From Dehalogenimonas etheniformans (GTDB lineage Bacteria; Chloroflexota; Dehalococcoidia; Dehalococcoidales; Dehalococcoidaceae), in NCBI RefSeq assembly GCF_014672715.2, contig NZ_CP058566.2, forward strand, positions 1,798,001 through 1,862,000: DNA of 64,000 bases. The letters run 5' to 3'. The position numbers and the translations under genes were made by a program. Below, in pieces: positions 9,692-34,715 of this stretch (within the stretch, counting starts at the first letter, position 1; each line of letters starts with the position of its first letter). The notes beneath the pieces were generated by a model that did not search any database, was not told the DNA's origin, and saw only the letters and a program-made list of their open reading frames with translations.

Positions 9692-11260
9692 CTATTTGTA
9701 TCCGCCGTGCTTGGCGCCGAGGGCGGTGGAGTAGCCGTAGGACGGAAGGGACATATCCCACCATTCTTCCTTAGCTTCGCCTTGCTTGAGGCCGAAACCA
9801 AAGGTCGTGTCCATCTGAGCGAAGAAGCCATTGAACAGGCTGGTGGTCGCCAGCGTGCCCCTGACCACATCATGGACCAAAGCGCCGTATTGTGAGTTGA
9901 AGACACACACGCCAAAGCACAATTGGCAACCGTTGGACAATGGGGCGCGGAACGCGGCACAAGTGATACCGTCGCTCCAGTAGGTCTTGCGGCCAAGCTT
10001 GTAGTACTCGGCTTCGCCTTCACCGACCGGGTTGAAGCCCCAACCGGGCAACGGCGGATGCTTGGGGTTAACGGACGAGGCATAAGGTTCATAGGAGATC
10101 TCTCGGCCGCCCTTGGGTTCGATAGACGCAGACGGGCAGTGATCCGCGCAGATTCCGCAGGATTGGCAGAAGCGCCAAATGCCGGCGTCGACGGGCTTAG
10201 TATGGGCCATTGGTAAATCGGAGTATAACTCAAACAGACCTACGGATGAGCCATGTTCGGGGCTGATGGCCATGATAGAATGGCGTCCGTTCTCCGCAAG
10301 ACCTGATAGGACGGCGCCGGCAATGCCCGGCATGGCACCATATGGCTCGTCGTTCATGTGCTGGTAGCCCAAGCCGCGGATAAACATCTGGGTGCAGGCG
10401 CGGATATTCTCACGCAAGCGATAGCGGGTAATGTTGGCGGCGCTGAAGATCGCTGAATTGGGTGTGGTGCGGAAGGCTTCATGCGATTGCGGGACGGTAT
10501 AGCTCAGGGTGTAAACACCGTGGTCAGGGATGGATGTCACCTGAGTGGCAGCATCATAGGAAAACTTAGAGTCATTGACCAGTTTCATTGGCTGGACAAA
10601 AGTTTCGGTCGGCGGCCAGGTGGTCTTACCTTCATAGGGGAAATAGGTCTGGGCGATGCTCTGCCGACCGTGAGTGGCAAGAAGTTTTTGGTGGTTGCCT
10701 TCCAGTGCGGCAGCTCCAATGTTGGAAGCGCCAAAATGGGCCATGGCTGCCTCCATCATCTTCAGGTTTTCTTCCGGCGTACCTTCCCAGCGAGGCACGC
10801 CCAAGTCGCTAGGTGTTTGTATGACAGCCAAGCGCTTATCGATAAACTTGTCGGTATCGAGGGCAGTAAAACCGACACCGCGGGAGGCGTTGTTGAGCGC
10901 CTGGTCTCTGAGCGTCAGACCCGGCTCGTTTTTAAGAATCTGTTGCTTCTTAGCCTCGGTCTGCTGGTTAATAAGGGCTGTATATTCTGCTAAGCCAAGA
11001 TAACGGGCGATGATGGCGCCAGACTGAGTGCTGTGGAAACTGTGATGGCGCTTCATGATATCCCAATCGATATCTACGGTTGGTTCATCGACTTCTTTGA
11101 CCCACCAGGCTCGTTTGCGCAATTCAGTAGATGATGACGTGAGCTCATCGATGTCGTGATACACCGGGGCGACCAGGCTGGCGCCTCCGACCGTTGCAGC
11201 TCCGAAGCCTAAAGCCTTCATAAAGGCCCGACGTGTGAGTGTGCTATGAAATTTGGACAT
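9692..11260 (-). CDS. rdhA: Reductive dehalogenase catalytic subunit RdhA (copy 1)
   Basis: RdhA is the terminal reductase of organohalide respiration: a corrinoid enzyme with two Fe-S clusters that removes halogen from organic compounds. The 522-residue preprotein has a Tat signal with TRRAFMK at residues 9-15 followed by a hydrophobic stretch. The first cluster motif CQSCGICADHCP is near residue 367. The second is of the shortened form, C-X10-CQLC-X3-C, near residues 433-448. The start has a clear ribosome binding site (AAGGAG). As usual for this family there is no obvious corrinoid-binding DXHXXG motif. The substrate cannot be predicted from sequence. A nine-codon ORF and a duplicated block lie upstream. 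Confidence 0.97.
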   Translation of the reverse strand: MSKFHSTLTRRAFMKALGFGAATVGGASLVAPVYHDIDELTSSSTELRKRAWWVKEVDEPTVDIDWDIMKRHHSFHSTQSGAIIARYLGLAEYTALINQQTEAKKQQILKNEPGLTLRDQALNNASRGVGFTALDTDKFIDKRLAVIQTPSDLGVPRWEGTPEENLKMMEAAMAHFGASNIGAAALEGNHQKLLATHGRQSIAQTYFPYEGKTTWPPTETFVQPMKLVNDSKFSYDAATQVTSIPDHGVYTLSYTVPQSHEAFRTTPNSAIFSAANITRYRLRENIRACTQMFIRGLGYQHMNDEPYGAMPGIAGAVLSGLAENGRHSIMAISPEHGSSVGLFELYSDLPMAHTKPVDAGIWRFCQSCGICADHCPSASIEPKGGREISYEPYASSVNPKHPPLPGWGFNPVGEGEAEYYKLGRKTYWSDGITCAAFRAPLSNGCQLCFGVCVFNSQYGALVHDVVRGTLATTSLFNGFFAQMDTTFGFGLKQGEAKEEWWDMSLPSYGYSTALGAKHGGYK

Positions 11261-11291
11261 CCCTTTCTCCTTATAGTTCAGCTAATTAATT

Positions 11292-11321
11292 CTAGATTTT
11301 CCGGTCTTTCCCGAATGTCAT
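11292..11321 (-). CDS. Short upstream ORF (leader peptide candidate) of rdhA copy 1
   Basis: A nine-residue ORF (MTFGKDRKI) on the rdhA strand has AGGAGGTG 11 nt upstream of its ATG and stops 31 bp before the rdhA start. The first codons resemble a 30-residue ORF before the second rdhA, whose peptide begins MAFGIDR. Shared position and sequence suggest either a regulatory leader peptide or simply common ancestry of the upstream DNA. Translation is not proven. Confidence 0.35.
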   Translation of the reverse strand: MTFGKDRKI

Positions 11322-11462
11322 CTTTCTGTGAACACCTCCTTATTCTTGTCATTTATTTCCAAGAGGCAAAGAATCTGAACTCGTAAAAACGAAAAAACAA
11401 CAAATTCATTGCCCTGACACAATCCGTCGGAATTTTTCATGAATCCCACTGTCTTTTGCAGA

Positions 11463-11788
11463 AACAATCGGAGTAGTTTTCTGCAGGGAAACATTCTAAC
11501 AGACTAAGGGTTATAGTCATCGTACTAAAGAACTAGTACCTATGCTGATTTATTATTATTAATGTTCTGTGAATAATAGTTATGGAGCAGCTTGTTATTA
11601 GTTGATTAATGTGATTAATATTTCAGAACAATCGGAGTGTTTTTTGCAGGGAAACATTCTAACGGACTAAGGGTTATAGTCATCGTACTAAAGAACTAGT
11701 ACCTATACTGATTTATTATTATTAATGTTCTGTGAATAATAGTTATGAAGTAGATTGTTACTAGTTGATTAATATGACTAATATTTCA
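11463..11788. repeat. Tandem duplication of about 163 bp upstream of rdhA
   Basis: Two near-identical copies run from 11463 to 11625 and from 11627 to 11788, starting at AACAATCGGAGT and ending at ATATTTCA. Only scattered substitutions and one indel separate them. Each contains the inverted repeat GTACTA-N6-TAGTAC (11522-11539 and 11685-11702) and an A/T-rich stretch with ATTATT/AATAAT symmetry. The block occupies most of the 615-bp gap between the divergent rdhA and the gene starting at 11879, so duplicated operator or promoter DNA is the natural reading. I see no gene in it. Confidence 0.85.
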
Positions 11789-24227: not shown

Positions 24228-25649
24228 TTAGTAGGTAGAATGCGTGACGCCGACAGTAGTGTCAAAACCAAGACTCGGTTGAGTTAGGTTCCACCAATTT
24301 TCCTTGTCCTCATGTGCGCCATAACCCCACCATTTGTCGGCACGCCACAGGAAGTCATTAAACATGGGGGTACTAGCCAGCGTTGCTTTAACATAGCTGT
24401 GAATACCGGCTGCTCCGGTATTGAAGGTACAAATGCCCATGCACTGGCCGCAGCCGCCGAAGGTAGCCTTCAAGCTCCAGCAGGAAACGCCATCGGTCCA
24501 GAACTGCTTCTTGCCCGGAACATGGGTATTATCTGCCTTGCCATAGATCTGGGGGATGTCCCATCTGGGCTCCTTATCATCAGGAATAGAGCCGGTCGGG
24601 CAGGCCTCGGAGCACTTGTGGCAGGTCTGGCAGAAGCGCCAGATACCCGCATCGATCGGCGGAGTCGGTGCTACCGGAATGTCCATAACCACAGAGAAGG
24701 CGCCAACGGTAGAACCATACTCCGGGGAGATGCAGACACCGTTGTTACGACCACCCTCAACGGTACCCGTTAAGGTGTTGGTGGCGATAGTCGGAATGGC
24801 GCCGCAAACAGGGGTGGTATAACCGTAGATTTGATAACCCAGGGTGCGGGCAAACTGCTGCAACCGCGGCTGGATTATGGACCATTGGCTGTACCGGATA
24901 GAGTTGCCTGCGCCGCCGATATTGGAGCTAGGCCAAGTGCGATACATTTCCTTGGACAACGGATGCAGGAAAGCCATATCGTATAGGGGAACACTAGCAG
25001 GCAGAACGAGTTTGTCCGTGCCTTCATAGCCGACGGCAACATCTTCGAAAATGTATTTCTTGTGTGAGGCAGCTTTGTCATATTCGCGGACCAGTTTATC
25101 CTTGTACTGCTGGGAAATCTCAGCGAAACCAACAGTAGCCATCCCGTAGAATCGAGCAGCCGCGCGCATCATCTTAGCGTTTTCTTCCGGCGTGCCCGAC
25201 CACTTAGGAACTCCGAGCTGGGCTGGGGTTTTTGAGGTCTGCAAGCCCATGTAACTAATGGGGGCCTGGTATATTCCACTTGATAAGGCGGTATCACGAA
25301 GGTTCATACCAGGGGCATTTGCCTTCAATTTTTCGGCCGTATACGCCGTTGCTTGAGCAGATCTTTTCTTTTGTTCATCAGCGCCCATGAAGTAAGTCTG
25401 GCAAGAGGCATCCTGACCGGTCCACTTGCCGTCTGACCTTTTCATCTGGCTCCAATCCAGTTCAACCGTAGGATTTTCCAGTTCGCGGTCCTTGATCCAC
25501 CACGCACGGTTCAACTTGCCTTCAGGCGAACTTATTACTTCATCCAGATCCTTGAAGGTCGGCGCTGTTAATGCAGCTGCACCTACTGCAGTCAAACCAA
25601 GCGCTTTCATAAAATCGCGACGACTCAGTGAGCTGTGAAATTGTGACAT
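24228..25649 (-). CDS. rdhA: Reductive dehalogenase catalytic subunit RdhA (copy 2), no adjacent rdhB
   Basis: The 473-residue preprotein has a Tat signal (SRRDFMK at residues 9-15). The first ferredoxin-like motif is CQTCHKCSEACP near residue 340. The shortened second motif, C-X9-CGQC-X3-C, lies near residues 388-404. It is about 50 residues shorter than copy 1. No RdhB-like gene follows; the next gene downstream is a DOMON lipoprotein. A MarR-family gene is divergent, an arrangement known for regulated rdh operons in Dehalococcoides. The substrate cannot be predicted. Confidence 0.97.
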   Translation of the reverse strand: MSQFHSSLSRRDFMKALGLTAVGAAALTAPTFKDLDEVISSPEGKLNRAWWIKDRELENPTVELDWSQMKRSDGKWTGQDASCQTYFMGADEQKKRSAQATAYTAEKLKANAPGMNLRDTALSSGIYQAPISYMGLQTSKTPAQLGVPKWSGTPEENAKMMRAAARFYGMATVGFAEISQQYKDKLVREYDKAASHKKYIFEDVAVGYEGTDKLVLPASVPLYDMAFLHPLSKEMYRTWPSSNIGGAGNSIRYSQWSIIQPRLQQFARTLGYQIYGYTTPVCGAIPTIATNTLTGTVEGGRNNGVCISPEYGSTVGAFSVVMDIPVAPTPPIDAGIWRFCQTCHKCSEACPTGSIPDDKEPRWDIPQIYGKADNTHVPGKKQFWTDGVSCWSLKATFGGCGQCMGICTFNTGAAGIHSYVKATLASTPMFNDFLWRADKWWGYGAHEDKENWWNLTQPSLGFDTTVGVTHSTY

Positions 25650-25717
25650 ATTCTCATTCCTTTCCTATCATTTTTCTTGGTCTTCCCCAATGCCATCCGG
25701 TCTATCCCGAAGGCCAT
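25625..25717 (-). CDS. Short upstream ORF overlapping the start of rdhA copy 2
   Basis: A 30-codon ORF begins MAFGIDRMALGK at 25717 and runs out of frame across the rdhA start codon, ending inside the Tat signal coding region. The opening codons closely resemble the nine-residue ORF before rdhA copy 1. A GGGGGAG stretch lies upstream at a longer-than-ideal distance. Overlap with the rdhA start would allow translational coupling. Translation is unproven. Confidence 0.35.
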   Translation of the reverse strand: MAFGIDRMALGKTKKNDRKGMRICHNFTAH

Positions 25718-25771
25718 TTTCCTATCAGTCTCCCCCTTTCGGCGTAACGTCATATTACCTATTTGTGTCTT

Positions 25772-25968: not shown

Positions 25969-26436
25969 ATGCCTCAGACAACCGTCACAAGTTATTCCGA
26001 TCCGATACTCGATCGCTGGGCCCGTTTTATGCGAACGAGGAACCTTTTATATAATATCTTCAGGCGCGATCTAGCCGAATTGGGTATCAAACCGGAACAA
26101 CTCGGTATTTTGAACATCGTAAATATGGCCGAGGGACCGGTTACTCCTTCATTTATTTCACGTATCTATCGTCGAGAGCCGCACACGGTTTCCGTTAATT
26201 TAAAAAGGCTCGAAGCTAGAGGGTTAATTAAGTTGGTCAAGGACATGCAACGAAGAAACATGATCCGTGTAACGATTACCAAAGCGGGTGAAGATGTTTG
26301 GGAAAGAGGTATAAAGAAAACAGACAATGTCGGCCTCATTTTTGCTGAACTCTCTCCGGCTGAATCAGACCAACTGGATACCATCATAAACAAGCTGGCC
26401 GAAGCCTCCCTAAGAGTAGCAAAACGGCATAAATAG
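25969..26436 (+). CDS. MarR-family transcriptional regulator
   Basis: The 155-residue protein has the MarR winged-helix layout: an N-terminal dimerisation helix, a recognition region around ISRIYRREPHTVSVNLKRLEARG, a wing with RRNMIRVTITKAGEDVWE and a C-terminal dimerisation helix. ATG 25969 is preceded by GGAGG; an earlier in-frame start at 25894 lacks one. It is divergent from rdhA copy 2, so it is the likely repressor or sensor for it, as shown for MarR-type Rdh regulators in Dehalococcoides (established for relatives, inferred here). Confidence 0.92.
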   Translation: MPQTTVTSYSDPILDRWARFMRTRNLLYNIFRRDLAELGIKPEQLGILNIVNMAEGPVTPSFISRIYRREPHTVSVNLKRLEARGLIKLVKDMQRRNMIRVTITKAGEDVWERGIKKTDNVGLIFAELSPAESDQLDTIINKLAEASLRVAKRHK

Positions 26437-34598: not shown

Positions 34599-34626
34599 AA
34601 CCGACATGATCCTTCTAATGTCGGTT
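34599..34626 (-). terminator. Terminator-like hairpin in the glmS leader
   Basis: AACCGACAT (34599-34607) pairs with ATGTCGGTT (34618-34626). On the minus strand the stem is followed by TTATTTTATTTTTAG, and the glmS ribosome binding site comes just after. It may be an attenuator controlling read-through into glmS. Confidence 0.6.
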
Positions 34627-34634
34627 TCACTATT

Positions 34635-34681
34635 GGCTCCCCACCACCCAAGTGACCAGATAAAGGTGGCAGTTCACAGCC
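34635..34681 (-). promoter_or_regulatory. Structured element in the glmS 5' leader (riboswitch-like)
   Basis: Nested pairings can be drawn: GGCT/AGCC outside (34635-34638 with 34678-34681), CCACC/GGTGG inside (34644-34648 with 34665-34669), and loop bases GTGA (34652-34655) can pair with TCAC (34674-34677), giving a pseudoknot. It precedes the terminator-like hairpin. I do not recognise a glmS ribozyme core or another known class, so identity is open. Confidence 0.35.
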
Positions 34682-34715
34682 TCATCTATTTATTCTTTTA
34701 TACTTAGTAACTCAA

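Follow-up and report, generated by a model that had tools for sequence, protein, structure and literature searches.

Sequence covariation supports a structured RNA hairpin element in the leaders of reductive dehalogenase genes in Dehalogenimonas and its family

Two rdhA leaders in the window

The stretch of DNA analysed here (the window, 64,000 nucleotides of the Dehalogenimonas etheniformans genome) carries two genes, rdhA copy 1 and rdhA copy 2, which encode reductive dehalogenases (PF13486), as the first-pass annotation had held. Each is preceded by a short open reading frame (ORF) which that annotation had also reported and which is indeed present in the sequence (Table 1). In copy 1 it reads ATG ACA TTC GGG AAA GAC CGG AAA ATC TAG (MTFGKDRKI*), and its ATG stands 13 nt from the upstream AGGAGG, farther than a good start site allows. 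The 30-codon ORF of copy 2 begins MAFGIDRMALGKTKKN... and overlaps the ATG of its rdhA out of frame, again as described; its in-frame repeat, MAFGIDR/MALGKTK, had been missed and corresponds to two tandem RNA units of 21 nt. The core common to both leaders, TTCGGGA-AGACCGGA, is not a chance likeness, as it recurs before other rdhA genes in the same orientation. It is also an inverted repeat, a feature that had escaped the earlier description. The leaders in the window have no Rfam match at the gathering score, and six leader loci compared with Rfam gave no credible match at E ≤ 5.

Two further features of the window were recorded. A 150-nt direct repeat lies upstream of rdhA copy 1 (11476-11788), its two copies being 163 nt apart and 94% identical, and a c-di-GMP-II riboswitch scoring above the Rfam gathering threshold is located at 34610-34693 on the reverse strand.

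Table 1. Features of the two rdhA leaders and their surroundings, in window coordinates (SD1, upstream Shine-Dalgarno-like site)
Feature	Position	Strand	Basis
SD1, copy 1, AGGAGG	11335..11340	-	sequence
UGRC box TGAC, copy 1; with the preceding A, the ATG of the first-pass annotation	11317..11320	-	sequence
Hairpin, copy 1, single unit: UUCGG[GAAAGA]CCGGA	11300..11315	-	fold z = -2.93; R1 match E 1.2e-6
Short ORF MTFGKDRKI, copy 1; judged incidental	11292..11321	-	
rdhA SD, copy 1, AAGGAG	11267..11272	-	sequence
rdhA copy 1, reductive dehalogenase, Tat signal; ATG at 11260	9692..11260	-	PF13486, E 9.3e-72
SD1-like site, copy 2, AGGGGG	25732..25737	-	
UGRC box, copy 2 unit 1, TGGC	25713..25716	-	
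Hairpin 1, copy 2: UUCGG[GAUAGA]CCGGA	25696..25711	-	fold; R1 and R2 matches
UGRC box, copy 2 unit 2, TGGC	25692..25695	-	
Hairpin 2, copy 2: UUGG[GGAAGA]CCAA	25677..25690	-	fold; R2 match at G000 1823675-1823717, E 1.2e-21
30-codon ORF MAFGIDRMALGK..., copy 2; internal repeat = two 21-nt RNA units; judged incidental	25625..25717	-	
Purine-rich SD region of rdhA copy 2, AGGAAAGGA	25658..25666	-	sequence
rdhA copy 2, reductive dehalogenase, Tat signal; ATG at 25649	24228..25649	-	PF13486, E 1.6e-47
Divergent MarR-family regulator beside rdhA copy 2; would act on DNA if acting here	25969..26436	+	PF12802

Covariation and anatomy of the element

The core has the consensus UYCGG-GANAGA-CCGGR, with an asymmetric and conserved loop. 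From leader to leader the arms co-vary (ACCGG/CCGGU, AUCGG/CCGAU, CUCAG/CUGAG, UCUGG/CCAGA) and the loop stays constant. Among 77 distinct sequences of hairpin 1, the five pairs are standard in 90, 95, 97, 100 and 100%. In the two-hairpin alignment 94.8% of the cells are paired, a value which falls to about 45% when the partners are slid by one column. Double-change cells number 43 against 14.1 ± 3.6 in shuffled alignments, and the covariation score is 0.568 against 0.255; in neither case did any of 500 shuffles reach the observed value. Predicted folds gave a mean unpaired probability of 0.92 for the loop and 0.07 for the stem. Of the three options raised by the first-pass annotation, namely a leader peptide, translational coupling or a structured RNA, the last is borne out by covariation in both hairpins across 84 copies from two genera. 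The sequence comparison thus strongly supports the shared core as a covarying RNA hairpin element, a structured cis-regulatory RNA.

The anatomy was derived from 84 aligned elements, with five irregular ones besides, across the two genera. A unit consists of a UGRC box, 2 nt, a stem of 4-5 bp (5 bp in hairpin 1) and a hexaloop of RARAGA type, mostly GAGAGA or GAAAGA. UGRC is kept in 81 of the 84 elements, loop positions A4 and G5 are invariant and A2 nearly so in hairpin 1, although conservation percentages are upper estimates because the models used for collecting the elements favour UGRC and the loop. The base that precedes the box, the first of [N]TGRC, is T in 33, A in 29, C in 17 and G in 5 elements. 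A second unit of like design (stem of at least 3 bp, loop 20-21 nt further downstream) is found in 46 of 84, and the number of units varies from one to five with a period of about 21 nt. Rows of three to five hairpin units, with a period of ~19-21 nt, were seen at L199 (genome G166) and at L145, L151 and L111 (G001, G006 and G002).

The layout around the units is conserved as well. On the upstream side they are flanked by SD1, in most cases followed by an AUG ~8 nt ahead of UGRC, and on the downstream side by the SD of rdhA; rdhA itself starts at a median of 69 nt after UGRC. SD1 (AGGAGG) begins mostly 16-20 nt before UGRC and matches in at least five of six positions in 74/84 elements. An ATG follows SD1 at 3-10 nt in 49/84, compared with a mean of 17 and a maximum of 28 in 500 shuffles of the spacer; in the other 35, both window copies among them, no ATG stands at a normal distance from the SD. 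No fixed position of a -10 promoter was found upstream of the elements.

A reading in which UGRC closes hairpin 1 from outside, through G-C and C-G pairs on either side of an R-R mismatch, was rejected because single-hairpin elements keep UGRC (37 of 38) and mostly lose its partner: GRC follows hairpin 1 in 41 of the 46 leaders with a hairpin 2, compared with 10 of the 38 without. Judged from these counts, UGRC is a separate box.

The short ORFs

Beyond the two window loci, the core is conserved across rdhA leaders with neither codon-wise constraint nor a conserved frame. When the first ATG lying before UGRC is taken (n = 45, a stricter count than the 49 above), its frame relative to UGRC is distributed 15/15/15, and in 40 of the 45 leaders it stands 7-9 nt before the box. 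The upstream ORFs are 1 to 112 codons long and their peptides are not conserved. Translational coupling may operate, given the enriched SD and AUG before the hairpin, but most of these ORFs terminate ahead of rdhA and just one of 43 shares its frame. The ATG singled out by the first-pass annotation belongs to the [N]TGRC box, a point that it had missed. In its register GRC follows a TTG codon in 33 copies, ATG in 28, CTG in 17 and GTG in 3, a mix which indicates that this is not a selected start, and the likeness of the peptides stems from the RNA consensus, which translates in that frame to x-T/A-x-G-K/R-D-R.

Regulation of rdhA by translation of such ORFs (MTFGKDRKI and the like), whether as leader peptides or through attenuation, would be in keeping with the enrichment of SD1 with a well-spaced AUG and with ORFs as minimal as M-x-x-stop, of which there are several. 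Yet the random frame, the scattered lengths, the unconserved peptides and the many leaders without a spaced ATG all speak against it, and the changes in the core follow base pairing rather than codons. Enrichment of the AUG with a random frame instead points towards placement of a ribosome beside the RNA structure.

Distribution in the genome and the family

The exact core TTCGGGAWAGACCGGA occurs at two sites in the 2.07-Mb genome, both inside the window. With up to two mismatches there are 14 sites genome-wide (the two exact ones and 12 with one or two mismatches), most of which adjoin rdhA genes on the upstream side in the same orientation. A covariance model of hairpin 1 (R1) gave 22 strong matches (E < 0.002) in the same genome. 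Of these, 21 precede rdhA or rdhA-like Tat genes, always on the strand of the gene, and the remaining match sits within a coding region. The E-values are rough owing to short calibration, and hits of R1 and of the two-hairpin model R2 that fell inside coding regions, or within a transposase-like gene repeated in G004, were left out. One of the 21 leader matches belongs to a decayed rdhA (L076, G000:601732-601759), in which a complete hairpin leader is followed by the C-terminal part alone, an apparent deletion remnant.

The element is present in 11/11 family genomes, eight of eight from the window's own genus and three of three from the sister genus; the two genera are inferred to be Dehalogenimonas and Dehalococcoides. 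In the window's own genome (G000) it precedes ~20 rdhA genes, and about half of the rdhA genes there do without it, so that rdhA expression does not depend on it. An rdhA with a signal region resembling that of TceA/TdrA, at G000:1686309 (L054, L065) and in G005 (L096), is preceded by a single-unit element nearly identical in the two genomes.

Leaders of other types were also noted. A structured leader termed class B precedes the G000 rdhA genes at 212095-, 1456248-, 1460972+ and 1590764+ (L165, L166, alignment A5). Its CCGGCGGCC hairpin is followed by a second stem, which GGAAG...CTTCC closes together with GTAAAGACTGCCGG...GGGTCAGA, and its four copies share 24 consensus pairs, three with double changes. 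There was no credible Rfam match to it, and its exact pattern is absent from the ten related family genomes. A DNA-like box, AATCAGCATAAATGCGTATTTACA, palindromic TAAATGCGTATTTA, occurs in the hairpin-free leaders of the G000 rdhA genes at 36998-, 88157+, 89927+, 93245+, 1446681-, 1458738+ and 1592947+ and is possibly an operator. Finally, the sequence CCTTTAGKACGATGT recurs in the leaders of the G000 rdhA genes at 31762-, 298251- and 1451232+.

Occurrence before other genes

R2 was searched against 245 genomes of the class and a 400-genome sample of the phylum; at E ≤ 1e-7 it had no match outside the class in that sample. Beyond the family, a few other Dehalococcoidia have strong matches, which stand before unrelated, non-rdh genes. 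These encode a family-5 solute-binding lipoprotein (PF00496) and its homologue, a CARDB protein (PF07705), a recurrent small family starting MNPGTKAKTIGMILL, and proteins starting MNKRIMSLLLAVGLVL and MRKTLLIGLLVVVVALG. An N-terminal signal-like segment is found at 10 of the 11 loci (maximum 15-residue Kyte-Doolittle value of 2.6-3.0 after one to three K/R), and at the eleventh, L197, a peptidase-like ORF lies about 180 nt downstream. Most of the non-rdh leaders have an SD and an AUG 9 nt before the first UGRC, like the rdhA leaders, and the leader at L199 carries five consecutive units. As RdhA is exported through Tat as well, exported proteins are the common denominator in this small sample of about five independent gene families, export being predicted from sequence. 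A degenerate three-unit pattern was also scanned for in genome contigs and was discarded as too unspecific, with at least 119 stretches in many phyla.

Tentatively, and with more doubt than confidence, the element may be a signal used throughout the Dehalococcoidia on mRNAs for exported proteins, comprising a ribosome-docking site and an array of identical hairpins read by a protein; it would control or target the synthesis of these proteins and would have been recruited to a large part of the rdhA genes in the organohalide-respiring family.

Possible modes of action

With roughly even confidence, we propose that the element acts in cis in the 5' leader of rdhA mRNA, where hairpin units read by a protein, together with ribosome docking, would set translation or mRNA stability. 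The multiplicity of the units and their invariant loops suggest a multivalent protein ligand, from which we infer a trans-acting protein. This RNA-binding protein would read the UGRC boxes and the loops, with more units giving a stronger effect. As the stem begins ~13 nt after the A of the AUG, a ribosome initiating at SD1 and this AUG would sit with its front edge at hairpin 1; such initiation cannot be general, given that 35 of 84 leaders lack a normally spaced ATG. The translation or the mRNA stability of an abundant exported protein would then depend on whether ribosome or protein is bound, and the short peptide would be an incidental by-product.

An unlikely but serious alternative is that the element is a ribosome-bound 5' stabiliser, in which SD1 holds a 30S subunit in the manner of a STAB-SD and the hairpins keep nucleases out, no specific protein being involved. 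The conservation of SD1 even where no start codon follows, the precedent of cry3A (PMC4113751) and targets that are likely abundant exported proteins agree with this explanation. However, plain stabilising hairpins would need neither an invariant loop nor a UGRC box nor a repeated module.

It is improbable that the tandem hairpins are a small riboswitch which binds a metabolite or a halide directly. The guanidine-II riboswitch does bind its ligand with two hairpins. Further, a motif upstream of rdhA has been published as a weak riboswitch candidate (PMC11109978). Against this stand the make-up of the element, one to five identical 20-nt units with no complex fold and no terminator seen, and its occurrence before unrelated exported-protein genes. 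Sequestration of the rdhA SD by the hairpin array was considered and rejected, as the SD shows no consistent pairing (mean unpaired probability 0.55), which makes a simple ligand switch acting through it less likely.

A DNA operator, with a transcription factor bound to tandem inverted repeats, would fit the inverted-repeat core and a spacing of 20-21 bp, or two helical turns, but is very improbable, as the arms change in a compensatory manner around a fixed asymmetric loop and the element is always in the sense orientation at a fixed position between two SDs. A leader peptide, for the reasons given with the short ORFs, is scarcely credible.

Which of its dozens of rdhA genes an organohalide respirer expresses, and how, is a practical and long-standing question. 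Published work on rdhA regulation, in the text available, concerns DNA-level regulators (two-component systems, MarR, CRP/FNR), and the available part of a 2026 comparative study of Dehalogenimonas describes control of rdhA by these same three kinds and does not mention leader RNA. A modular RNA element shared by ~20 leaders of one genome and by all 11 family genomes would move much of this control to the mRNA level and, if the proposal is true, would add a post-transcriptional layer to the regulation of reductive dehalogenases. The single hairpin unit is a compact object for experiments and can be swapped in number. That the element also stands before genes for unrelated exported proteins in other parts of the class is a hint of a new RNA-binding system.

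Comparison with known systems

Leaders regulated by CsrA/RsmA likewise carry several GGA-like hairpins near SDs. Unlike these, the present element has second-unit loops such as CAAAGA that lack GGA, the conserved part being AAGA/AGA. This identity was rejected, CsrA being found in 0/11 family genomes, whereas three control genomes gave a match. ANTAR-target RNAs (PMC3369931) share two small tandem hairpins, hexanucleotide loops, conserved purines and the position in a leader. Their loops, however, conserve A1 and G4, whereas the present element conserves A2, A4 and G5, with no terminator seen. The ANTAR reading was rejected on this loop register; a search for ANTAR proteins in the window's own genome came back empty, as it did in the control genomes.

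The STAB-SD of Bacillus thuringiensis cry3A (PMC4113751) is also an SD-like sequence in a 5' leader for which a translation start is not needed. As a stabiliser it is defined by a bound 30S subunit that blocks 5'-3' exonuclease and prolongs the life of the mRNA. In the description given there it has no array of hairpins with conserved loops, and in the present element an AUG is enriched after SD1.

The closest known relative is WRC-34-1, an rdhA motif published as a weak riboswitch candidate with 18 representatives, mostly from Dehalococcoides (PMC11109978, NAR 2024). Both it and the present element are structured RNAs immediately upstream of reductive dehalogenase genes, a position in which ours is also met in the inferred Dehalococcoides genomes. 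In contrast to the present element, the available text on WRC-34-1 makes no mention of tandem units, of an upstream SD and AUG or of targets other than rdhA. The class B leader is a less likely counterpart of WRC-34-1, because its exact pattern does not extend to the other ten family genomes. Judged from its text description, the present element is probably WRC-34-1, which had been seen with few members.
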